From NCBI RefSeq assembly GCF_000166415.1, contig NC_014654.1, positions 558,001 to 622,000 of the forward strand: 64,000 bases of DNA. The letters are read 5' to 3'. The stretch is from Halanaerobium hydrogeniformans (GTDB lineage: Bacteria > Bacillota > Halanaerobiia > Halanaerobiales > Halanaerobiaceae). Within the stretch, counting starts at the first letter, position 1; the number at the start of each line of letters is the position of its first letter. The position numbers and the translations under genes were made by a program. Positions 5,654 through 17,188 of the stretch are shown one piece after another. The notes beneath the pieces were generated by a model that was given only the letters and a program-made list of their open reading frames with translations, did no database searches and was not told the origin of the DNA.

Positions 5654-5682
5654 TTGACGGTGGTTGAAAATTATAATATAAT
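5654..5682 (+). promoter_or_regulatory. Sigma-A-type promoter for the peptide-type ABC operon
   Basis: TTGACG at 5654-5659 and TATAAT at 5677-5682, separated by 17 bases. It lies about 50 bases upstream of the binding-protein start. Confidence 0.7.
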
Positions 5683-5734: not shown

Positions 5735-7336
5735 ATGCGAAGCAAGTTTTTACTCTACTTATTTGTACCAATTCTTGTAATCGGATTGAGTTTGGGAGTC
5801 TCAGCAGAAAGGGTACCTGAATTAAATATCATGACAACTACGGAAGGTTATGATCCGGTTCGTTATGAAGCGGCTTTTTTAATTCAGGAAAATTTAGCTG
5901 AATTGGGAATTGAGGTCAATGTTTCTCCAACCGAATTTAGTACATTAATTCAAAATTTCTATAATGAACAGGATTTTGAAATTGCTATTGCAGGTTGGTC
6001 AGGCAGGGTTGATAGACTTGATCCTCAGCACTTTTTAGGCACTTTAGAGTCTGGACAGGCTGATCTTGGTGGTAATAATCCGGGTGGCTATGTAAATGAA
6101 AGATATGATGAGCTATTTCAGATGCAGTCAAAAGAATTTGACCAGGATTTAAGAAGAGAATATGTTCTGGAAATGCAGGAAATAGCTATGGATGAACAGC
6201 CTGTTAACATACTCTTTTTTAGAGATGAGGTTGTAGCATATAATAGAGATAATTTCACAGGTTTTGTGCCAATGGCAGGAGAAGCTATTTATAATGAATG
6301 GATTCCCTTTGATGTTGAGCCTTTAACTGATGATAGAAGTCTAACAATCGGAACAACCCAGGAGCCGGATAATATTAATCCTCTTGATTCCACAACAGTT
6401 TGGGGCTGGAAATTCATGAGGATGTATTATGATAAATTAATCCGTCTTTCCCCAGATATTGAGCCTTTACCATGGGCTGCAGAATCTGTAGAAGCAATTG
6501 ATGATAATACGATCGAGATAGTTTTAAGAGATGGAATGTACTTCCATGACGGTGAACCTGTAACTGTAGATGATGTTAAATTTAGTTATGATTATTATCA
6601 AGAACAGGATTTTGCTTACTTTAGGCCTTTTTATCAGCCTTTAGAAGAAGTTATAGTTGTTGACGATAATACATTGCATTTTGTTCTCGAAGAACCAACA
6701 TCATTCTTTATAACAGTAACTTTAAGTCAGATTCCTATTTTACCTAAACACCTCTGGGAAGACATCGAAGCTGCAGATCAGCTTTCTCCAGAAGATGTAC
6801 CAACTGTAGGAAGTGGACCACTGGTATTTGATCAATATGATCGTGGTGAGTACAAACGACTGGTTAAAAATGAAGATTACTTTAAAGCAGATGAGATAGA
6901 TATTGATGCAGTTGATTTTAATATTTATGCCGATTCTGAAGGGGTTTATACTGCTTTAGTAACAGAAGAAATTGATATGACTGCCTGGAGATTGGAACCA
7001 GCTCAAATTGATCTTGCCGAACAGGAAGATCACCTTGAAGTAGTTAGTGTTCCTGATTTTGGGTATTATCATATGACCTATAATTTAAGAGTTCCTCCAA
7101 TGGATGATATAGAATTCAGAAGAGCTTTAGCCCATGCGGTACCTTATGAAACATTTATAAATGTTCTGCTGGATGGCTTAGGTGAAAGAGGGACTTCAAT
7201 AATTGCTCCTGTTAATTCTTTCTGGCATAATCCGGATGTTCCTCTCTATGATTATGATCTCGATTTAGCCAGAGAAAGATTAGAAGAAGCAGGTTATTGG
7301 TGGGATGATGAAGGTAGACTGAATTTCCCTCAATAA
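5735..7336 (+). CDS. Circularly permuted family 5 ABC solute-binding protein
   Basis: Extracytoplasmic binding protein of the oligopeptide/dipeptide (SBP_bac_5) family, 533 residues, with a signal peptide (residues 1-24, cleavage near VSA-E). The order of its parts is swapped. Residues ~29-190 read like the usual C-terminal half: PELNIMTTTEGYDPVRYEAA, then LAELGIEVNV, then AGWSGRVDRLDPQHF. Residues ~201-533 read like the usual N-terminal half: LTIGTTQEPDNINPL, FHDGEPVTVDDVKFSYDYY, FRRALAHAVPYETFI. The protein stops at EEAGYWWDDEGRLNFPQ, exactly where a normal member would continue into the segment that here opens the mature protein. A short linker (IPFDVEPLTDD) joins the old C-terminus to the old N-terminus. 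Start ATG follows AAGGAGGAG. A terminator separates it from the permease genes. The ligand cannot be read from sequence; peptides, nickel or sugars are all possible for the family. Confidence 0.88.
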   Translation: MRSKFLLYLFVPILVIGLSLGVSAERVPELNIMTTTEGYDPVRYEAAFLIQENLAELGIEVNVSPTEFSTLIQNFYNEQDFEIAIAGWSGRVDRLDPQHFLGTLESGQADLGGNNPGGYVNERYDELFQMQSKEFDQDLRREYVLEMQEIAMDEQPVNILFFRDEVVAYNRDNFTGFVPMAGEAIYNEWIPFDVEPLTDDRSLTIGTTQEPDNINPLDSTTVWGWKFMRMYYDKLIRLSPDIEPLPWAAESVEAIDDNTIEIVLRDGMYFHDGEPVTVDDVKFSYDYYQEQDFAYFRPFYQPLEEVIVVDDNTLHFVLEEPTSFFITVTLSQIPILPKHLWEDIEAADQLSPEDVPTVGSGPLVFDQYDRGEYKRLVKNEDYFKADEIDIDAVDFNIYADSEGVYTALVTEEIDMTAWRLEPAQIDLAEQEDHLEVVSVPDFGYYHMTYNLRVPPMDDIEFRRALAHAVPYETFINVLLDGLGERGTSIIAPVNSFWHNPDVPLYDYDLDLARERLEEAGYWWDDEGRLNFPQ

Positions 7337-7360
7337 AACAATAATATAATTCAATATTAA

Positions 7361-7391
7361 AATAGGGAGGGGGTTCCTCCCTATTTTTTTT
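7361..7391 (+). terminator. Intrinsic terminator between binding protein and permeases
   Basis: AATAGGGAGG (7361-7370) pairs with CCTCCCTATT (7376-7385), followed by T8. Partial read-through would give more binding protein than permease, as is common in ABC operons. Confidence 0.85.
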
Positions 7392-7433
7392 CAAATCAGA
7401 AATTGCATACAGAAATTTCAATGAGGTGAATTT

Positions 7434-8423
7434 ATGGGTAAAGGACAATTTTTCGCAAAAAGAATAATTCAATTAATAATAACTTTTTTTATAATTTTAA
7501 CTATACTATTTTTTCTGTTTCGTTTGGCTTTACCTGATCCAACTGCAGCTCTGGTTATGGATGGACTTTCTGCAGAAGAGCAGGCACTGGTCAGGGCTCG
7601 TTTTGGTCTTGATAGGCCATTAGTAGAACAGTATTTTATTTATTTAAGGAATTTTATGACAGGTGAATTTGGGATGTCATTTCATTATAAGTCGGCTGTT
7701 TTTCCGATTTTGATGGAAAAACTTTTTAATACCCTGGCTTTGATGTTGCCAGCAATTTTTATTTCTTATTTGATAGGGCCACTTTTGGGAGTGTTATTAT
7801 CCTGGAAAAGGGGAAGTAACACCGAATTTGCAGGTATAGTAGGGGGGCTCTTTTTGCGTTCTGCCCCTGTATTTTGGACCGGTATGATTTTTATTATGAT
7901 TTTTGGGATCTGGCTGGGTATATTACCAACCAGTGGGATGAGAACCCTACCTTACACAGCAAGTGGTAACTTTGATAAAATAATGACTTTAGATTATTTG
8001 CGGCATCTTATCTTGCCGATGACGACTATAGCCCTCTATTATCTTGGTCTACCGATGCTGATAATGAGGAATACTATGTTGGAAATTATGGGTGAAGATT
8101 TTATAGAATTATGTCAGGCAAAGGGTTTAAGTGAACGCAAGATAATGTATAAACATGTTGCCCGTAATGCTCTTTTACCTGTTGTGACCCAGGCTGCGAT
8201 TACAATTGGCCTTGCGGTTGGCGGACAGGTAGTAGTAGAGGTGGTCTTTTCCTGGCCGGGATTGGGTAGAGAAATGATCCAGGCTGTTCGGACAAGTGAT
8301 TTTCCGATGGCCCAGAGTGCTTTTATGATGATGGCCGGTCTGGTCTTAATTATGAACACAGCAGCTGATTTGCTTTATAGTTATTTAGATCCCCGGGTTG
8401 TACTTAAGGGGGGAAATAAATAA
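7434..8423 (+). CDS. Peptide-type ABC transporter permease (DppB/OppB family)
   Basis: Inner-membrane subunit of the peptide/nickel-type importer, 329 residues, about six membrane spans. The first span is at residues ~10-30, followed by the family's outside segment (LPDPTAALVMDGLSAEEQA, then LGLDRPLVEQYFIYLRNF-like sequence). The cytoplasmic coupling loop is visible as ELCQAKGLSERKIMYKHVARN. The C-terminus ends in the usual YSYLDPRVVL. ATG 7434 follows GAGGTGAAT. The stop overlaps the ATG of the next gene by one base (8423), so the two permeases are translationally coupled. It pairs with the permease next door to form the channel for the permuted binding protein. Confidence 0.92.
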   Translation: MGKGQFFAKRIIQLIITFFIILTILFFLFRLALPDPTAALVMDGLSAEEQALVRARFGLDRPLVEQYFIYLRNFMTGEFGMSFHYKSAVFPILMEKLFNTLALMLPAIFISYLIGPLLGVLLSWKRGSNTEFAGIVGGLFLRSAPVFWTGMIFIMIFGIWLGILPTSGMRTLPYTASGNFDKIMTLDYLRHLILPMTTIALYYLGLPMLIMRNTMLEIMGEDFIELCQAKGLSERKIMYKHVARNALLPVVTQAAITIGLAVGGQVVVEVVFSWPGLGREMIQAVRTSDFPMAQSAFMMMAGLVLIMNTAADLLYSYLDPRVVLKGGNK

Positions 8424-10219
8424 TGGCTGATAAAAAAGCTTTTAAAGAACGGCTGAAATATTTCAAGCCGATGCTGCTTAATCTTTTTGAACCATTTAAA
8501 ATAATATTTAAAGATCCTCTGGGTAGAATTGGAGCGGTAATTTTATCGATAATAATTTTAACCGCAATTTTTGCACCTTTACTTGCAACCCATGATCCCA
8601 ATCAGATGAATGAAAGAATTGAGGGAAGCTTAATACCCTTTGATGAAGATGGTGAGTGGAAAGATTATCAGGTTGTTGGAGAATATCCCTTTAATGAAGT
8701 TGCAATCGGTGAGGATTATGAAATAGCAGCTGCAGATGGTGGATATATATATTTGAAAGAGATTGGTGAAAGCTGGCAGGAATTTAAAATGGAATTAGAT
8801 ATTGATTTTCTGGCTGCCGCTGTTTATCAAGAAATGAAATTTGTGGCAGGAGAAGATGGTATAATTTTAAGGGAAGTAGATGGCAGCTGGCAGAGGATGC
8901 CTACAGATACAGATCAAGATATTAATGATTTAGTTATAATCGGTTCTGATCAGGCTTATGCTGTAGGTGATAATGGTCTCTTTTTGCGCTGGGATGGTGT
9001 AGAATGGAGTCAAATCGATAGTGGTACGACCAGGAATTTGAGGGAAATATCATTCAGTGCTCCTGAAGATGCTATAATAGTTGGTGATAGAGGTAGTATA
9101 ATTCATTACAGGGATGGTGAATTATCTGAACCTTCTTATCGTGGATTTATGGATTCAACTTTTAGAAACTTGCTGGCTGTTTCCTATTTCAGTCCCAATC
9201 AGGCTATAGCTGTTGGAGAAAGAGCAACAGTTATGATCTATGATGGTGAAAATTGGTATGCAGATGATAGTGGAGCTTCCCGCTCTCTTAATGGTGTTAT
9301 CCATATTTCTGAATCGGAAGCATATGCTATTGGTCTTAGAGGTACTATTTTAAAATATGATGGCGAAACATGGGAAACCCTTGATCGGATTACAAGAAGA
9401 GATTATCGTGGAATCAGTTATGGCTCAGAAAAGGGCTATATTTATGGAGTAGAACCATATGTTAATGAATTGGCCACTCCTTCTCGTGATCACTTTTTTG
9501 GGACAACCCACCTGGGGCGTGATATTTGGAGTCAGGTTATGTATGGAACAAGGACAGCTCTGATGGTTGGTATTATAGCAGCCCTGGTGGTTAATTTTAT
9601 TGGTGCAACAGTAGGTTTGATTGCAGGATATTACAGGGGTGGTGTAGATAATTTTTTGATGCGAATTGTTGATATAATGTACGGTTTGCCATTAGAACCA
9701 TTTGCAATAATCCTGGTTTTAATCTTTGAACCCAGCCTCTGGATTATAATTATGGCGATTGGGCTCTTGACCTGGAGAACCAATGCACGGATAATACGTT
9801 CTCAGGTTTTATCTCTGGTAGAAAGACCCTTTATTAAAGCAGCCAGGGTTGCTGGAGCCAGTGATGCAAGGATAATGCTTATTCATATAACCCCCAATAT
9901 TTTACCACTGGCATTTTTACAGTTGGCAGTTGCAATGGGATATGCTATTACAGCAGAAGCAACACTAAGTTTTCTAGGTCTTGGGCCACCACAGATTTAC
10001 AGTTGGGGAACAATACTTCATTCAGCTCGACTGTCTGGAGCCTGGCGTACAGCCTGGTGGTGGGTAATTCCACCTGGATTATTTATCTGTGTGACAGTGG
10101 TCTCAGTCTTTTTAATTTCTAGATCACTGGAAGTTTTAACAAATCCAAGATTGAGAGGAGGTAGAGATAATGCTCCTGAACCTGAAGAATCTGAAGACAT
10201 ATTACCGAATGGACAATAA
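8423..10219 (+). CDS. Peptide-type ABC permease (DppC/OppC family) with an inserted extracytoplasmic beta-propeller
   Basis: Second membrane subunit of the transporter. DppC-type permeases are about 280-320 residues; this one has 598. TM1 is at residues ~36-55 and ends in FAPLLATHDPNQMNE, the normal family sequence. The normal next segment, FFGTTHLGRDIWSQVMYGTR, appears only at ~358. Between them, residues ~65-350 form about six or seven ~45-residue units with the pattern AxAVGxxGxIxxxDGxxW, for example AYAVGDNGLFLRWDGVEW and AYAIGLRGTILKYDGETW. That pattern is typical of Ycf48/BNR-like beta-propellers. The remaining five spans and the coupling loop AARVAGASDARIMLIHITPN are intact. The propeller would sit outside the membrane, next to the binding protein. 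The reading frame is continuous with uniform composition, so this is a real fusion. The end overlaps the ATPase start by 50 bases. Confidence 0.92.
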   Translation: MADKKAFKERLKYFKPMLLNLFEPFKIIFKDPLGRIGAVILSIIILTAIFAPLLATHDPNQMNERIEGSLIPFDEDGEWKDYQVVGEYPFNEVAIGEDYEIAAADGGYIYLKEIGESWQEFKMELDIDFLAAAVYQEMKFVAGEDGIILREVDGSWQRMPTDTDQDINDLVIIGSDQAYAVGDNGLFLRWDGVEWSQIDSGTTRNLREISFSAPEDAIIVGDRGSIIHYRDGELSEPSYRGFMDSTFRNLLAVSYFSPNQAIAVGERATVMIYDGENWYADDSGASRSLNGVIHISESEAYAIGLRGTILKYDGETWETLDRITRRDYRGISYGSEKGYIYGVEPYVNELATPSRDHFFGTTHLGRDIWSQVMYGTRTALMVGIIAALVVNFIGATVGLIAGYYRGGVDNFLMRIVDIMYGLPLEPFAIILVLIFEPSLWIIIMAIGLLTWRTNARIIRSQVLSLVERPFIKAARVAGASDARIMLIHITPNILPLAFLQLAVAMGYAITAEATLSFLGLGPPQIYSWGTILHSARLSGAWRTAWWWVIPPGLFICVTVVSVFLISRSLEVLTNPRLRGGRDNAPEPEESEDILPNGQ

Positions 10220-12449
10220 AATAATCAAAGCAGTAGATGGAGTTTCTTTTCAACTAAAATCAGGAGAAAATCTCGGCCTGGTTGGAGAAAGCGGCTGTGG
10301 TAAAACTACAACCGCTAAATCTATAAATCGTATTTTACCAACAAATGGTGGAATAGTAGCCGGTGAGATCAATTTTCAGGGTAGAGATCTGGCCCGCTTA
10401 ACAGAACAAGAATTAAACAAGGTGCGCTGGCGTGATATTGCCATGGTTACTCAAAGTGCTATGAATGCTTTAAACCCGGTATACAAGATAGGTGAACAGA
10501 TGGTTGAGGCTTTTCAGACCCACATTAATATTTCTAAACAGGAGGCCCTTGATCGCTCAGCGCATTTATTTTCACTGGTAGGACTGGAAAAGAGCCGTTT
10601 AAATGATTATCCCCATCAGCTATCTGGAGGTATGAAACAAAGGGTTGTTATTGCGATGGCGATGGCCTTAGATCCACCTTTAATTATAGCAGATGAACCT
10701 ACCACTGCTCTGGATGTTGTAGTTCAGGATGGGATTTTAAAGCAGTTTGTCTACCTGCAAAACAAAATTAATTCTTCCATAATTTTGGTTACTCATGATA
10801 TTTCAGTAGTTGCAGAACTATGTCAGCGAACAGCAGTTATGTATGCCGGCCGGATCATGGAGCAGGGAAGTACTAGAGAGATTTTTAAAGAGGCCTATCA
10901 TCCCTACACATTGGGACTTATTAATGCCTTTCCAACCCTAGAAGCGGCGAAAGAAGAGCTGATTTCTATACCTGGTTCTCCACCAAATTTGGCCAGAGAA
11001 TTAAATGGCTGCAGGTTTAAAGAAAGGTGTCCTTTTGCTACAGAACTCTGTGAAAAAGATCCAGAGATTCAAGAGGTTGCAGATCAACATCTAGTAGCCT
11101 GTCATTATCCTGGCCGGGTACAAGAATTTAGAGAAAAAGCTGTGTTGCCTGCTACCTGGGATCAAGAGATGAATACTATTAAAGTGAAAAGCAAGAAAAA
11201 AAGGAAATCAGTTCTGGAAGTAGATGGTTTGAGAAAAGTGTTTGAGTTAAAAAGCAAAGATTTTTTTGGTCGAAAAAAAAGATTGCTTAAAGCAGTAGAT
11301 GGGGTTAATTTCAAGGTCAAAGAAAAAGAGATACTCGGTTTTGCTGGAGAAAGTGGTTCTGGTAAATCAACCTTAGGAGAATTGGTTGCTCGACTGCAGC
11401 AGGCTACTGAAGGGAAGATTCTTTATCTGGGTAGGGATATATCAGATCTAAAAAGGAAAAGATTAAAATCTTTCAGAAAAGATCTGCAGGTTGTTTTTCA
11501 GGATCCCTATGAAACCCTTAATCCCCGCTTTACAGTGATGCAGACGATTATGGAGCCTTTAAAAATTCATAAGATAGGTGATAACTTTTTTGAGAGGTTA
11601 GAAAAGGTAAAAGAAGCTCTTCATAAAGCTGAATTAAGACCTGTAGAAGATTATTTAGAGCGCTTTCCTCATCAGTTATCCGGTGGACAGCGTCAGAGGG
11701 TGGCCCTGGCGAGAGCAATAGTTTTAGAACCAAAGTTTATCATAGCTGATGAACCTGTATCTATGCTAGATGTTTCAGTTAGAGCTGGGATCCTTAATTT
11801 GTTGAAAAAATTAAGAGATGAACTGGGAGCATCTATAATTTATATTTCTCATGATCTGGCAACAATCCGCTATATTTGTGATCGGACAGCTATATTGTAC
11901 TTAGGTAGGATCATGGAAATTGGCGAGACCGAAACTGTGATTTCAAAAGCATGTCATCCTTACACTAAAATGCTGCTTGCAGCAGTTCCAATTCCAGATC
12001 CTGATCGAAATAGAGAAAGGGTGGATCCAAGAGGAGAAATACCAGATCCAATAGAATTACCTAATGGCTGTCGGTTCCATGCTCGCTGTGCTCAGGCAAC
12101 ACCGAACTGTGGTTTTGAAGCAAAAGATGTTGAAAAGGTTATTATTAAAGCTAAAAATCATCCGGATTATCCTGAAGTTTATAGTCAATTTGAACAGATC
12201 AAAAAAATAGAGATCAAGGCTTATAATCTGGAGTTGACCGTTGAGCTTAAGACTGATGATAAAGAAAGTTTTGAAGAATATCTCTGGAAAATAGCTGCCG
12301 AATGGAATAAATCACTTCCCAAAGCAGTAGTTGATTCCAGCTGGCAGGGAAATAAACTGATGATAGAATTTGCCGGTAAAGATGAGCCTGAGTTAAGAAA
12401 AAGCAAAACAGGTCAGGATGTAGCCTGTGTACTTTATCCAAAAAAATAA
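10170..12449 (+). CDS. Fused double ATPase of the peptide-type ABC transporter (DppD-DppF fusion) with a C-terminal extension
   Basis: Cytoplasmic energy subunit, 759 residues, joining two ABC proteins that are usually separate. The first half has Walker A GESGCGKTT near residue 40, signature LSGGMKQRVVIA near 151, and the oligopeptide-transporter C-terminal motif with spaced Cys (CRFKERCPFATELC). The second half has Walker A GESGSGKST near 394, signature LSGGQRQRVALARA near 500, and its own Cys motif (GCRFHARCAQATPNC). After residue ~650 comes ~110 residues (from DVEKVIIKAKNHPDYPEVYS) that are not part of the usual ABC fold and that I do not recognise. The start ATG follows GAGAGGAGG and lies inside the end of the permease gene, implying coupled translation. 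One chain would supply both nucleotide sites. Confidence 0.93.
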   Translation: MLLNLKNLKTYYRMDNKIIKAVDGVSFQLKSGENLGLVGESGCGKTTTAKSINRILPTNGGIVAGEINFQGRDLARLTEQELNKVRWRDIAMVTQSAMNALNPVYKIGEQMVEAFQTHINISKQEALDRSAHLFSLVGLEKSRLNDYPHQLSGGMKQRVVIAMAMALDPPLIIADEPTTALDVVVQDGILKQFVYLQNKINSSIILVTHDISVVAELCQRTAVMYAGRIMEQGSTREIFKEAYHPYTLGLINAFPTLEAAKEELISIPGSPPNLARELNGCRFKERCPFATELCEKDPEIQEVADQHLVACHYPGRVQEFREKAVLPATWDQEMNTIKVKSKKKRKSVLEVDGLRKVFELKSKDFFGRKKRLLKAVDGVNFKVKEKEILGFAGESGSGKSTLGELVARLQQATEGKILYLGRDISDLKRKRLKSFRKDLQVVFQDPYETLNPRFTVMQTIMEPLKIHKIGDNFFERLEKVKEALHKAELRPVEDYLERFPHQLSGGQRQRVALARAIVLEPKFIIADEPVSMLDVSVRAGILNLLKKLRDELGASIIYISHDLATIRYICDRTAILYLGRIMEIGETETVISKACHPYTKMLLAAVPIPDPDRNRERVDPRGEIPDPIELPNGCRFHARCAQATPNCGFEAKDVEKVIIKAKNHPDYPEVYSQFEQIKKIEIKAYNLELTVELKTDDKESFEEYLWKIAAEWNKSLPKAVVDSSWQGNKLMIEFAGKDEPELRKSKTGQDVACVLYPKK

Positions 12450-12596: not shown

Positions 12597-13214
12597 ATGC
12601 TCTATATTGAAGGACTGTTAAAAAAATCACCCGTTATACCAGCTGTCAAAAGTTTAAGTGATATTCAAAAAGTCCCAGATCATATTAATGCTATTTTAAT
12701 ATTGGATGCGGATATTCTTTATGTAGAAAAAATGATAGATCTTGCTGTACAGAAGGATCTAATAATATTTTTACATATAGATTTATTTAAAGGTATCAGC
12801 AGAGATGAATATGGAATTAGATATTTAGCTAGAAAAACAGGGATTGATGGTATTGTCTCAACTAAGGGATATTTGATTAAAATGGCCAGGGAAGAAAATT
12901 TAATTGCCATTCAAAGATTATTTATTATCGATTCTTCCGCCTTCGATAAAACTTTGCGGATAATTGAAGATGCTAAACCAGATATGATAGAAATATTACC
13001 GGGTTTGGTTTATCCGAGGTTAGCAAAAATATTGAGGCGAAAGATTAAACAACCCCTTATTGCCGGTGGGATGATAACAAATAAAAAAGATGTTGAAGAT
13101 ATTCTTCAAAAGGGTGCAACTGCTATATCCTCTAGTGACAAAAATATCTGGAAATATAAAGATTTTCAAAAAAATGAAAAAATCTCTTCACAATCCTTTA
13201 AATACTCTTTATAA
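12597..13214 (+). CDS. glpP: Glycerol-3-phosphate-responsive antiterminator, GlpP family
   Basis: GlpP proteins bind leader mRNA when glycerol-3-phosphate is present and stop premature termination. This 205-residue protein has the family's TIM-barrel pattern: VIPAVKSLSDIQ at the N-terminus, ILILDADIL, FLHIDLFKGISRDEYGIRYL, GIDGIVSTKG, the Arg-Leu-Phe-Ile-Asp-Ser segment (QRLFIIDSSAF), DMIEILPGLVYP and PLIAGGMITNKKDVEDIL. The last ~20 residues are a lysine-rich tail. ATG 12597 follows AGAAAGGA. Directly downstream is a leader with a strong terminator ahead of a glycerophosphodiesterase gene, whose reaction product is glycerol-3-phosphate. That makes the leader its natural target. E. coli has a paralogue, YgcP, so the exact effector is inferred. 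Confidence 0.85.
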   Translation: MLYIEGLLKKSPVIPAVKSLSDIQKVPDHINAILILDADILYVEKMIDLAVQKDLIIFLHIDLFKGISRDEYGIRYLARKTGIDGIVSTKGYLIKMAREENLIAIQRLFIIDSSAFDKTLRIIEDAKPDMIEILPGLVYPRLAKILRRKIKQPLIAGGMITNKKDVEDILQKGATAISSSDKNIWKYKDFQKNEKISSQSFKYSL

Positions 13215-13236
13215 TTGTATTTGTCGTATTAAATTT

Positions 13237-13267
13237 TTGCGTTTATTTTAAATATTCAAAATATAAT
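13237..13267 (+). promoter_or_regulatory. Possible promoter of the GDPD-TRAP operon
   Basis: TTGCGT at 13237-13242 and TATAAT at 13262-13267 with a 19-base spacer. The -10 is good, the spacing long. It would start a transcript through the terminator-bearing leader. Confidence 0.45.
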
Positions 13268-13292
13268 AAATACAATAGGTGAATCAGAGAAG

Positions 13293-13379
13293 CCCTATTT
13301 GTTTAATTAGAATGACTGTTTAGAAAGTTTAAGCAGCCAGCACCCCAACTATGCCTAATTAAACAGATAGGGATTTTTT
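13293..13379 (+). terminator. Leader terminator, candidate GlpP antitermination target
   Basis: An 18-base arm (13293-13310, CCCTATTTGTTTAATTAG) pairs with 13355-13372 with a single G-T wobble. It is followed by T6 at 13374-13379 and lies in the untranslated leader only ~34 bases before the GDPD start. The 44-base loop contains GCAGCCAGCACCCC, unstructured by eye. A terminator placed before the first gene, with an antiterminator gene just upstream, fits regulated read-through. Confidence 0.8.
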
Positions 13380-13412
13380 ATGCCTAATTTATAGAGGGAG
13401 GTGAAAAGAAGC

Positions 13413-14147
13413 TTGTCTGAAATTTTAAATATAGCCCACAAGGGAGCCTGTGGTTATTATCCAGAAAATTCTCTGCTGGCTTTTGAAAGAGCTGTAGAAA
13501 TGGGCTGTGATGCTTTTGAAATAGATGTACAGCTGAGCAGTGATGGGAAAATAGTGGTCTTCCATGATGAAGAGTTGGATAATGTTAGTGATGGATCAGG
13601 TTTTTTGAAAGACCATACCTGGGCAGAATTAAAAAACTTAGAAATAACAGATAATAATGAGGATGAAAAATATGGAGTGCAGAGAATTTTAAGTTTAAAA
13701 GAGTTGTTAAAAATGATGCAGAAAAATGACATTATTTTAAACTTAGAACTCAAAAATGATCTTATTGATTATCCTGGAATGGAAGAGAAGGTTTGTGAGA
13801 TGCTTAAAGAGTATAAAATGCTCGATAGGGTTATTGTTTCGTCATTTAATCACTATTCATTAAGAAAATTTTCAAAAATCTGTCCAGAAATTGATCTGGG
13901 AATACTCTATATGACGACCCTTATCAAACCTGAGAATTATGTTGATTCTTTAGATTTTAAAGTGAGATCACTTCATCCAGCAGCTAAAACTTTGGATCAA
14001 GAAGTTGTTAAGGGAATTAAAGCTTCTGGTTATGAGATATATCCTTATACGGTCAATGAAAAAGAAGAACTAAAAAAAATGATCGAATTAGGAGTAGATG
14101 GAATTATTACTGATTATCCAGATAGATTAAAAGAGATATTAAAATAA
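13413..14147 (+). CDS. Glycerophosphodiester phosphodiesterase (first copy)
   Basis: Cleaves glycerophosphodiesters to glycerol-3-phosphate and an alcohol. About 244 residues, TIM-barrel GDPD family, no signal peptide, so cytosolic. Visible are the N-terminal catalytic region (NIAHKGACGYYPENS), metal ligands in FEIDVQLSSDGKIVVFHDE, LNLELKN, and the C-terminal VDGIITDYPDRL. The usual HRG motif reads HKG here, a conservative Arg-to-Lys change; the second copy at 17.7 kb keeps HRG. The frame is open from a GTG at 13401. However, the TTG at 13413 lies 11-12 bases after GGGAGGTG and gives MSEILNIAH, matching the start of the second copy, so TTG is preferred. It leads the TRAP operon. Confidence 0.88.
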   Translation: MSEILNIAHKGACGYYPENSLLAFERAVEMGCDAFEIDVQLSSDGKIVVFHDEELDNVSDGSGFLKDHTWAELKNLEITDNNEDEKYGVQRILSLKELLKMMQKNDIILNLELKNDLIDYPGMEEKVCEMLKEYKMLDRVIVSSFNHYSLRKFSKICPEIDLGILYMTTLIKPENYVDSLDFKVRSLHPAAKTLDQEVVKGIKASGYEIYPYTVNEKEELKKMIELGVDGIITDYPDRLKEILK

Positions 14148-14204
14148 AAATATATTTTGAGTAATTTCACAAAAATAAATAAGAGATTAACAAGGAGGAG
14201 AAAA

Positions 14205-15233
14205 ATGAAAAAGTTAAGTTTAGTTATGGCAGTAGTTTTATTTACAGGTGTTATTTTAATAGGTGTAGGTGGCAGTATGGTTTCAGCCGATGATGATTTT
14301 CAACTTACATTAAGATTGAGCCATGTTTTCAGCCCAGAAGAACAGCTAACTAAGTCAATGGATTTAGTTGCCGACAGCATTAGAGAAAAAACTGATGGGG
14401 CTATTAATATTCAGACATTCCCTCAGGGCCAGATCGCCGCTTATAAAGATGGTGTAGAACAGGTTGCAAGAGGTGCTAACTTTATTTCTGTAGAAGACCC
14501 AACTTACATAGGTGATTACGTACCTGATTTTACAGCTATGGTTGGACCGATGCTTTACAGTAGTTTTGATGAGTATGTAGCTATGACTGATACAGAGCTG
14601 GTAGAAGAATTGAAAGAGGAATTAGCAGAAGAACATAATATTAAAGTTTTATCGCTTGATTATGTTTTTGGATTTAGAAATGTGATTACAGATGAAGTTA
14701 TAGAAACGCCTGAAGATTTATCAGGGTTAAGAATTAGAGTTCCAGGAAGTCAGCTTTTCATCGAAACTTTAAATGCAATGGGTGCTAATGCAACTCCACT
14801 ACCCTGGGGAGAAACGATCTCAGCTATGCAGCAGGGTGTTGTAGACGGTATTGAAGGATCAGAGTTTACAAATATAGGTAACAGTATTTATGAAGTAAGA
14901 CAAAATGTTGCTTTAACCCGTCACTTCTTAGGAGCTTGTGGTGTTTATATCAATACAGATGTATGGGACAGCATTCCTGAGAGATATCAGACTATTATTC
15001 AAGAAGAATTTGATGAAGGTGCAGTACATATGGTTGAATTGCTTGATTCTCAACATGCTGATGTAGTAGAAGAATTAGAATCCCATGGTGTAGAGTTTAA
15101 TGAGGTAGATTATGATGCTTTTGTTGAAGCTACTGAAAGTATTTATGATACTTTCCCAGGCTTTAGTGATGATATTTATGAAAGACTACAAAATGAACTA
15201 GAAATTATCCGTCATGATTTAGAAAATCAATAA
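14205..15233 (+). CDS. TRAP transporter solute-binding protein, DctP family
   Basis: Extracytoplasmic binding protein of a sodium-driven TRAP importer, about 342 residues. A signal peptide spans ~1-26 (ends in MVSADDD). Family signatures are LRLSHVFSPEEQLTKSMD at the mature N-terminus, FPQGQIAAYKDGVEQV, and the carboxylate-binding region with LSGLRIRVPGSQLFIETLNA and AMQQGVVDGIEG. The key Arg is in RIRVPGS, which suggests an organic-anion ligand. The frame is open from 14157, but ATG 14205 directly follows AAGGAGGAG and begins a proper signal peptide. A stable hairpin separates it from dctQ. Confidence 0.92.
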   Translation: MKKLSLVMAVVLFTGVILIGVGGSMVSADDDFQLTLRLSHVFSPEEQLTKSMDLVADSIREKTDGAINIQTFPQGQIAAYKDGVEQVARGANFISVEDPTYIGDYVPDFTAMVGPMLYSSFDEYVAMTDTELVEELKEELAEEHNIKVLSLDYVFGFRNVITDEVIETPEDLSGLRIRVPGSQLFIETLNAMGANATPLPWGETISAMQQGVVDGIEGSEFTNIGNSIYEVRQNVALTRHFLGACGVYINTDVWDSIPERYQTIIQEEFDEGAVHMVELLDSQHADVVEELESHGVEFNEVDYDAFVEATESIYDTFPGFSDDIYERLQNELEIIRHDLENQ

Positions 15234-15257
15234 GCAGAAAAACCTTAGTTGGTTCTA

Positions 15258-15297
15258 GTCCTAACAGATGAAAATTAATTTTGGATTCTGTTAGGAC
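15258..15297 (+). other. Intercistronic hairpin between dctP and dctQ
   Basis: Perfect 11-base arms GTCCTAACAGA (15258-15268) and TCTGTTAGGAC (15287-15297) without a T run. More likely an mRNA stabiliser that raises binding-protein output than a terminator. Confidence 0.7.
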
Positions 15298-15337
15298 AAA
15301 ATTAATTATTCAATTAATTGAGGAGAAATTAAAAATT

Positions 15338-15874
15338 ATGAAAAAATTTATTAAAAATTTTGAGGAATATTTAAGTTGTTTTTTTATATCAATCACGGTT
15401 ATTCTCGTAATTATTAATGTTATTATGCGTTATATTTTTAATTCTGGTATTTTTTGGACTGAAGAGCTTGCAACATACTCTTTTGTCTGGAGTGTTTTTA
15501 TAGGGGCAAGTGCTGCCTATAAAAAAAGAATGCATATTGGAATTGATTTATTAACTAGAATAGTTCCAAAAAAATTAAAAGAATTAAGTAAAATGTTGAT
15601 AAACTTTTTTATGGTATTGATAAATGGCTATATCGCATATTTAAGTGTGATTTTTGTTTTAGAATCTGTTGGAAGGCCAACACCAGTTTTGGGTATCTCT
15701 TCAGCTTTCGTAAATGCATCTCTTTTAGTGTCATTTTCTTTAATGACTTTTCATGCTGCTCACTTTTTTATTAAGAACTTATTAATCTTTCTGAGTGATG
15801 AGAAAGAGAAAAAGCTGAGAAGAGCAGAAAAAAGTGTGGGAGTAAAGACTGAGATTAAAGAAGAAATTATATAA
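15338..15874 (+). CDS. TRAP transporter small membrane subunit, DctQ family
   Basis: Four-span membrane subunit, about 178 residues, that partners DctM. Spans lie at ~15-37, ~50-70, ~90-110 and ~128-150. The family stretch NVIMRYIFNSGIFWTEELAT is clear. The frame extends back to a TTG at 15281, but that lies inside the intercistronic hairpin. ATG 15338, preceded by TTGAGGAGA about 12 bases away, gives a normal-length protein. The C-terminal ~25 residues are a charged cytoplasmic tail. Confidence 0.88.
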   Translation: MKKFIKNFEEYLSCFFISITVILVIINVIMRYIFNSGIFWTEELATYSFVWSVFIGASAAYKKRMHIGIDLLTRIVPKKLKELSKMLINFFMVLINGYIAYLSVIFVLESVGRPTPVLGISSAFVNASLLVSFSLMTFHAAHFFIKNLLIFLSDEKEKKLRRAEKSVGVKTEIKEEII

Positions 15875-15907
15875 TATTATTTATTTAAAAAGAGAGGATG
15901 GTTTTTA

Positions 15908-17188
15908 ATGCAATATGCTCCAGTTGCTGTTGTATTTTTGTTATATTTTACAGGAATTCCAATCGCATTTGCTTTATTCGCAGCAGCTATTTATTATTTT
16001 GCCTTTATAAATGTTGGGATGCCTGTAGATCTTGTCTTGCAGAGATTTATTAGTGCAACCGCTTCATTTCCTTTGCTTGCAATTCCATTTTTTATAATGG
16101 CAGGAACAATTATGAATTATTCTGGAATTAGTTCTAAGTTAATGCAAATGGCCGATGTTTTAACTGGACACATGACAGGTGGTCTGGCCCAGGTAAATAT
16201 AGTTTTAAGTACTCTTATGGGAGGTATTTCTGGTTCTGCTAATGCTGATGCAGCAATGCAGTGTAAGATTCTTGTACCAGAAATGGAAAAGAGGGGTTAT
16301 GATAAAGCTTTTTCCACTGCAATCACTGCAGCTTCATCTGCAATTGCACCAGTTATCCCACCTGGTATTAATTTAATTATTTATGCTTTAATTGCCAATG
16401 TTTCTGTTGGTAAAATGTTTATAGCTGGTTATACACCTGCTTTAATTATGGCTTTTACATTGATGCTTACCGTGGCAGTTATTTCTAATAAAAGAGGTTA
16501 TAAGCCTTCCAGGGAAAAAAAAGCCACTTTTAAAGAAATTTTGATTCAGGTTAAAGAATCAGTTTGGGCATTATTTCTACCTTTTGGTATAATATTAGGA
16601 TTAAGATTTGGAATGTTTACCCCGACAGAAGCAGGAGCTATAGCTGTTTTATTTACTACTTTGGTTGGTTTATTTGTTTATAAAGAATTGGAATTAAAGC
16701 ATTTCCCAATTATTTTAAAAGATACTGTTTATGGAACCAGTACAGTTATGTTCATAATTGTTGCAGCATCTGTGTTTGGTTATTATATGAGCTGGGAAAT
16801 GATTCCTCAAGCCATTTCAGCCGTAATGCTGGGAGCAACTGAAAGTAGAGTTATGATGCTTTTATTAATTAATGTTCTATTTCTAGTTGTAGGAATGTTT
16901 TTAGAAGGGGGAGCTGCTTTAATTATATTAGCCCCTTTATTGGTACCAGTAGTGACAGGTTTAGGAGTTGATCCAATTCACTTTGGAGTTGTTGCTATCG
17001 TTAATATAATGATTGGAGGTATTACCCCTCCCTTTGGTTCGATGATGTTTACATCCTGTAGTATAACAGGTGTAGCAATAAATGATTTTGTCAGAGAGGT
17101 TATACCATTTATTTTAGCCTTGATAGTTGCATTATTGGTTGTAACTTATCTACCTGGTATAGTAATGTTTTTACCCAATCTTTTTTAG
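15908..17188 (+). CDS. TRAP transporter large membrane subunit, DctM family
   Basis: Transport subunit of the TRAP system, 426 residues and about 12 hydrophobic segments; an elevator-type carrier driven by sodium or protons. Family motifs are LLAIPFFIMAGTIMN near residue 60, LMGGISGSANADAAMQ near 115, ITAASSAIAPVIPPG near 145, FTPTEAGAIAVLF near 238, and a C-terminal MIGGITPPFGSMMF. ATG follows AGAGAGG. With the upstream DctP and DctQ the transporter is complete. The flanking glycerophosphodiesterase genes suggest a phosphodiester- or glycerol-derived anion as substrate, which is inference only. Confidence 0.94.
   Translation: MQYAPVAVVFLLYFTGIPIAFALFAAAIYYFAFINVGMPVDLVLQRFISATASFPLLAIPFFIMAGTIMNYSGISSKLMQMADVLTGHMTGGLAQVNIVLSTLMGGISGSANADAAMQCKILVPEMEKRGYDKAFSTAITAASSAIAPVIPPGINLIIYALIANVSVGKMFIAGYTPALIMAFTLMLTVAVISNKRGYKPSREKKATFKEILIQVKESVWALFLPFGIILGLRFGMFTPTEAGAIAVLFTTLVGLFVYKELELKHFPIILKDTVYGTSTVMFIIVAASVFGYYMSWEMIPQAISAVMLGATESRVMMLLLINVLFLVVGMFLEGGAALIILAPLLVPVVTGLGVDPIHFGVVAIVNIMIGGITPPFGSMMFTSCSITGVAINDFVREVIPFILALIVALLVVTYLPGIVMFLPNLF

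Follow-up and report, generated by a model that had tools for sequence, protein, structure and literature searches.

Circularly permuted importer binding proteins are met mostly as a trick of biosensor engineering, and a large folded periplasmic insert beside the binding protein is familiar from a type I ATP-binding cassette (ABC) permease in the MalF P2 loop of the maltose importer. Natural permutation has been described for TpMglB-2 of Treponema pallidum, a ligand-binding protein named Type Ic/Cluster Bc, for which a tethering link was raised by its authors (PMC4990184). Importers of the Opp/Dpp/Nik family, such as E. coli DppABCDF, consist of an SBP_bac_5 solute-binding protein (SBP), OppB/OppC-type permeases and two nucleotide-binding domains (NBDs) with C-terminal oligo_HPY/iron-sulphur (Fe-S) motifs (PMC12136057). 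Here we analysed a stretch of 64,000 nucleotides from Halanaerobium hydrogeniformans (NC_014654.1, positions 558,001 to 622,000; hereafter the window), which at positions 5735-12449 encodes an importer sharing all these parts and differing from the systems described there in a permuted SBP, a beta-propeller within OppC, fused NBDs and some 88 additional residues within the second Fe-S motif (PMC12136057). Among the papers listed by searches of the open-licence literature, none dealt with permuted SBPs of cluster C or with an importer permease that bears a propeller and, for Halanaerobium, none with this operon.

The four open reading frames (ORFs) of the Opp/Dpp-family importer, all on the + strand, encode the SBP (5735..7336, 533 aa), an OppB/DppB-type permease of ordinary architecture (7434..8423, 329 aa), the OppC/DppC-type permease with the propeller (8423..10219, 598 aa) and an ATPase with two ABC ATPase domains in one chain (10170..12449, 759 aa). 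The SBP scored 247.2 bits for SBP_bac_5 (cluster C) against a cut-off of 32.4, though its order is permuted, and BPD_transp_1, BPD_transp_1_N and OppC_N were above their cut-offs in the permeases; SBP, OppB and OppC reached no NCBIfam equivalog at its cut-off. By its SBP family, its OppB/OppC permeases and its oligo_HPY ATPase the operon belongs to the Opp/Dpp/Nik type I importers, and the system is real and self-consistent. The "distinct transporter class" considered in a first-pass annotation of the window is too strong a term for this operon, since all its parts belong to the Opp/Dpp family; the idea gains some weight from a second OppC insert with permuted SBPs, described below.

Ordinary SBPs of this family run in the order S1-S2-S3, and we used hidden Markov models (HMMs) of the three segments for order calls. 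Behind a signal-peptide-like N-terminal leader (5735..5812, by eye, boundary approximate), the window SBP carries the part that is C-terminal in ordinary members (S3, 5813..6334), followed by the ordinary N-terminal part (S1, 6335..6898) and by S2 (6899..7333), and the chain stops where ordinary members continue into S3. This order, S3-S1-S2, is called type A. Pfam SBP_bac_5 positions 2-284 match SBP residues 244-527, and in a genome-wide profile search positions 288-363 match upstream of positions 2-288. Likewise, phmmer against solved structures paired query residues 181-506 with residues 23-349 of the AppA chain (1xoc) and query residues 14-157 with residues 366-503, and the first 180 residues, searched by themselves, match regions that are C-terminal in cluster C proteins. 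Every segment of the ordinary fold is present in one chain in rotated order; the SBP is a true circular permutation with its C-terminal part first, as the first-pass annotation had proposed. Both the new start and the new end are kept in an alignment of 13 relatives, at the same breakpoint, and all seven SBP_bac_5 genes elsewhere in the genome have the ordinary order.

The permuted SBP is predicted to fold confidently (pLDDT 93.0, pTM 0.90). Because of the permutation, sequential aligners cover, as expected, only the first two thirds of cluster C structures: model residues 171-511 align to AppA 18-357 (Z 25.6), and in the 50 listed Foldseek matches the alignments span 332-393 columns, the matched chains being 474-542 residues long, so that none of the solved cluster C SBPs among these 50 is covered full-length. 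From the usual domain layout, we take the new N-terminus to lie in the normally C-terminal lobe. Some relatives look by eye like lipoproteins (e.g. L058, L138), so that the permutation may shift the membrane tether. A supposed loss of the Asp that binds the peptide amine was dropped, as the alignment shows an acidic residue there after a two-residue insertion. Natural permutation in an importer binding protein is the likeness to TpMglB-2, which binds sugar, belongs to cluster B and differs in fold and breakpoint (PMC4990184); the proteins described here are of cluster C and have two other breakpoints. Nor is the window SBP a cluster Bc protein, its sequence being SBP_bac_5 and its model matching cluster C structures. 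Two irregular relatives were noted: at L051:10431-12932 a permuted-type SBP beside an insert-bearing OppC is split in two ORFs (198 and 612 aa), perhaps by a frameshift, and at L066:4898-6358 a single ORF fuses a partial permuted SBP (S3-S1) to an NBD2-like domain, through deletion, decay or assembly error.

In OppC, Pfam places OppC_N at residues 28-64, propeller families at 91-312 and BPD_transp_1 at 394-578, and the insert occupies the loop between transmembrane helices 1 and 2 (TM1-TM2; 8606..9466, about residues 62-348, 287 residues). In the AlphaFold model (pLDDT 88.7, pTM 0.67), residues 19-577 align to E. coli DppC across the insert with 275 of 282 residues (Z 30.6, root-mean-square deviation 1.8), thus the permease is intact around the propeller. 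The predicted insert has the strand pattern of seven blades and aligns to a seven-bladed designer propeller over 272 residues (Z 30.1). According to the model, then, the propeller named in the first-pass annotation sits in the TM1-TM2 loop and leaves the DppC fold undisturbed. The MalF P2 insert lies in another loop, has another fold and contains no propeller. The fold is shared with the seven-bladed propeller Ycf48/HCF136, with weak sequence similarity (PSII_BNR 38.2 bits; Foldseek matches), but here the propeller is built into a permease, unlike Ycf48 (PMC10403576), and the score for NCBIfam PRK13684 was 40.3 bits against a cut-off of 326. Invariant polar positions in nine representatives of the propeller OppC include N63, R248, E266, R267, T269, R287 and R329; an equivalence of the four invariant arginines (R248, R267, R287, R329) to the Arg patch of Ycf48 could not be established.

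The ATPase chain contains two ABC_tran and two oligo_HPY domains by Pfam, in agreement with the one-chain double ATPase of the first-pass annotation. The Cys residues of its first Fe-S-type set lie close together. In the second set, about 105 residues separate the third Cys from the fourth, compared with the usual spacing of about 17 (C306 and C323 in E. coli DppF, PMC12136057), and the stretch between them (12111..12425) is about 88 residues longer than usual, the NBD2 tail insert. This insert is kept in the bacterial propeller cassettes and absent from the NBDs of ordinary type A systems. GsiA and YejF also hold two NBDs in one chain, but the window ATPase has the extra NBD2 tail and stayed below both equivalog cut-offs (498.8 against 1077 and 444.0 against 834, respectively).

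To describe the distribution of these parts, we searched several genome sets. The propeller OppC was found in 8 of 38 genomes of the window's order, in one of them split across two contigs. A sample of 398 genomes of the phylum, with up to three candidates per genome scored, gave a full-length match only in the window's own genome among the matches listed. A scan of named genomes with the type A SBP alignment yielded 80 loci, 17 with the full S3-S1-S2 order and one partial; three of the named-genome loci, in a Micromonosporaceae metagenome-assembled genome (MAG), Halomonas socia and a Pararhodobacter MAG, held the propeller cassette. Of 250 genomes in the family to which the Halomonas genome belongs, 16 had the propeller OppC, and the 15 further ones retrieved all carried the whole set. 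Among 72,556 plasmid records there were four OppC matches, the only one over most of the length being a Nitratireductor plasmid, again with the whole set. Furthermore, the Desulfurococcaceae archaeon at L141 has an OppC insert of equal size and site with a weak propeller profile match (9.6 bits), and its transmembrane domain (TMD) groups inside the propeller clade; this insert is probably a propeller as well.

In total, 28 propeller loci were collected, 27 bacterial and the probable archaeal one, and all 28 have an S3-S1-S2 SBP, which answers in the affirmative the earlier question whether the propeller permease always goes with a permuted binding protein. At the 26 propeller loci with an NBD gene in reach, this gene invariably encodes a two-NBD chain with 160-188 residues after the second NBD match, and for the 27th bacterial locus (G025) the fused ATPase gene lies on a separate contig (L041). 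The L141 locus contains no NBD gene within its 21.6 kb. The best match to the fused ATPase in the same archaeal genome is a separate NBD pair (L220:7817-9912, 52% and 50% identity), around which no SBP or permease was found within 17 kb; this pair may serve the L141 permeases in trans. In 21 loci, by contrast, the S3-S1-S2 SBP stands beside an OppC of ordinary loop length (TM1-TMD gap 27-32), and the NBD genes there encode single NBDs with tails of 80-117 residues. Propeller, NBD fusion and NBD2 tail therefore occur together and only with the permuted SBP, which also occurs without them, and the four genes travel as a cassette.

The segment HMMs also revealed a second permuted order, S2-S3-S1, in loci of the phylum, where it goes with an unrelated insert of about 200 residues in the same TM1-TM2 loop of OppC (L067, L069, L070, L073-L079, L081-L092, L252 and L253, comprising phylum relatives and archaea). 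OppC was counted as insert-bearing if the TM1-TMD gap was at least 120, and OppCs with a short N-terminus and no TM1 match were excluded from the counts. In the first set, insert OppCs were accompanied by S2-S3-S1 (22), S3-S1-S2 (8), S2-S3 only (5), S3 only (1), no SBP in reach (3) or an ordinary SBP (1, L098), and ordinary-loop OppCs by an ordinary SBP (46), S3-S1-S2 (10), S2-S3-S1 (0), a truncated SBP with S1 or S1-S2 (2) or none (6); two OppCs were set apart, one with a gap of 59 and an ordinary SBP, the other with a gap of 91 and S2-S3-S1 as the nearest SBP. L098, with an OppC frame of 558 aa, was rejected as a counter-example, for the frame reads through from the upstream gene and the likely true start leads to an ordinary loop. 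The six incomplete cases show weak S1-like fragments after S3, which fits S2-S3-S1 without proving that order. Loci L058-L077 had been picked by SBP match and are biased, whereas L078-L137 were picked from the OppC match list blind to the SBP. In this blind subset, inserts occurred with a permuted SBP in 16 of 16 cases (14 complete S2-S3-S1, two with S1 not found), with two more lacking an SBP, and ordinary loops with an ordinary SBP in 41 of 41 (L098 included after start correction), with six more lacking one.

In the named set, ordinary loops went with an ordinary SBP in 29 cases, with S3-S1-S2 in 10 and with S2-S3 only in one, and a single OppC whose gap was 77 stood beside an ordinary SBP. 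Twenty further loci with long OppC frames (15 from Pseudomonadota, five other), again chosen blind to the SBP, contained two clear inserts, the archaeal L252 and L253, both with S2-S3-S1; at L246 no SBP was in reach, and at the other 17 loci the SBPs were of ordinary order. The other long frames of this batch are apparently read-through starts or OppC-ATPase fusions, and those without a TM1 match, L239, L247 and L254 among them, were classed by hand from overlap with the upstream gene. Altogether, an SBP is in reach of 58 insert OppCs (28 with the propeller, 22 + 2 with the second type of insert and six incomplete) and none of these SBPs is ordinary, compared with 84 ordinary-loop OppCs with ordinary SBPs (46 in the first set, 29 in the named set and nine with a TM1 match in the last batch). 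ORFs of 645 and 680 aa at L248:5668-7605 and L250:5932-7974 have the permease TMD near the N-terminus and are probably OppC-ATPase fusions.

The order of events was addressed with an OppC tree of 88 TMDs, made by a quick method with the inserts removed and 30 of 76 ordinary rows sampled. The propeller rows form one clade (support 99) nested in the type A clade (100), the S2-S3-S1 rows form one clade (97) and the incomplete-type rows another (100), the latter two being joined at 88. A branch with a support of only 71 has every permuted row on the same side. The S2-S3-S1-type and incomplete-type inserts are homologous (97.4% probability, E 9e-12), and a comparison of the second-type inserts with the propeller alignment found no similarity. 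A single origin of all OppC inserts was rejected on this quick tree (approximately unbiased (AU) test, p=0.0065). Together with the unrelated insert sequences, this indicates that inserts were gained at least twice, each time in lineages with permuted SBPs. As the partners of the type A SBP in 21 loci are an ordinary OppC and unfused ATPases, the three rearrangements were not simultaneous: the permutation is older, and propeller, ATPase fusion and NBD2 tail came later. The first-pass annotation had suggested that permuted SBP, propeller and double ATPase evolved together; this holds for propeller, fusion and tail, and not for the permuted SBP, which in those loci has ordinary partners. The propeller itself was never seen without a permuted SBP.

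We consider it probable that the operon encodes a complete type I Opp/Dpp importer with a permuted cluster C SBP, in which the propeller serves as an extracytoplasmic docking or gating platform. The SBP would capture a small organic solute, such as a peptide or amino-acid derivative, outside the membrane and hand it to OppB/OppC for the usual ATP-driven cycle. By analogy with the large periplasmic loops of other type I importers, the propeller might stand beside the docking site and hold or gate the SBP. The TM1-TM2 loop of OppC presumably lies on the face at which the SBP docks, and a domain folded into this loop would then be close to the docked SBP; we therefore favour the docking or gating role. 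The permutation would have come first, relocating the termini, plus any membrane anchor, to the other lobe, and with the termini relocated, a bulky insert next to the docked SBP may have become tolerable or even of use. Extended to both kinds of insert, the proposal would be that an unnamed, broad Opp/Dpp branch of bacteria and archaea carries permuted cluster C SBPs with two breakpoints and gained an OppC domain at least twice because the relocated termini allowed or required a docking or gating domain, permutation and insert being mechanically coupled; we advance this wider claim only tentatively, as one possibility, and regard the coupling of loop insert to permuted SBP as suggestive, not proven. 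Several observations weigh against a docking platform coupled to the permutation. Mean identity over nine representatives is 34% in the propeller and 77% in the TMD, and such fast divergence would be expected of a module that is loosely constrained or faces the environment as much as of a docking surface. A simple charge attraction between propeller and SBP is disfavoured, since each carries a net acidic charge. No conserved neighbour was found at the propeller loci examined. Moreover, a test of independent pairs had only one or two pairs and no power: the association amounts to about two insert gains, thus the 58 of 58 must not be taken as 58 independent cases.

These points give room to other explanations. 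The propeller could be a passenger or a module facing the environment, where it would bind a polysaccharide, the cell wall, a second ligand or a partner in the outer membrane, without a role in docking, its co-occurrence with the permuted SBP going back to a single origin of a cassette inherited and transferred whole. The single clade of the propeller rows speaks for this, as do the surroundings of the cassette, which in Halomonadaceae adjoins housekeeping genes (by eye) and elsewhere has unrelated neighbours, and the fact that between L045 and the window no large part has changed faster than the propeller and the NBD2 tail (36% identity each, compared with 72-83% for SBP, OppB, TMD and NBDs). 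However, a separately arisen insert of unrelated sequence at the same loop is also found only with permuted SBPs, and we judge the passenger role rather unlikely. Permutation and inserts might also be functionally unlinked: permuted SBPs would have arisen neutrally by tandem duplication and become fixed in a few large clades, two of which gained an OppC insert by chance. Here the pairing of type A SBPs with an ordinary OppC at 21 loci and the small number of events, about two, are in favour, and so is TpMglB-2, whose permuted chain, from another cluster, binds its ligand and for which the available text of the report mentions no permease insert (PMC4990184); the absence of ordinary SBPs beside all 58 insert OppCs, set against the 84 ordinary pairs, makes chance doubtful to a similar degree. 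An assembly or annotation artefact in the SBP order can practically be dismissed: 49 type A loci within reach of an OppC, spread over many bacterial and archaeal genomes, share this order, the window SBP is a single unbroken ORF with a leader peptide and a confidently predicted fold, and nothing was found in favour of an artefact.

Circular permutation is here a natural and stable condition, present in a large branch of importers that spans phyla, and one SBP family shows two breakpoints. The wider pattern, the restriction of the OppC loop inserts found here to systems with permuted SBPs, is the more interesting result; it is unproven as a rule and easily testable, and the pairing offers a testable handle on how an SBP recognises its translocator and why SBP termini are placed as they are. 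It also bears on annotation, since records such as that of Nitratireductor label permuted SBPs and insert permeases as ordinary ones.

Regarding the layout of the operon, a sigma-70-like promoter match with 11 of 12 consensus bases (pattern match only) precedes the SBP gene at 5654..5682, OppB and OppC overlap by 1 base and OppC and ATPase by 50 bases. The single promoter with overlapping genes assumed in the first reading of the sequence is only partly borne out, for a 97-base gap follows the SBP gene and contains a terminator-like hairpin with a T run (7368..7392, hairpin 7368-7382; consensus match only). Near some type A loci without a propeller there are genes for M20/M19 peptidases, an amidohydrolase, Asp/Glu/hydantoin racemase, GntR-FCD regulators or creatininases; no substrate was called from gene neighbours, since the propeller loci share none that is conserved. 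In the window, the cassette lies between a uvrA-like gene (by eye) on one side and a glycerol-3-phosphate antiterminator gene on the other. The region downstream of the operon, 12597-17188, holds this antiterminator-like gene together with a GDPD gene, followed by a transporter that by eye resembles the tripartite ATP-independent periplasmic (TRAP) type.

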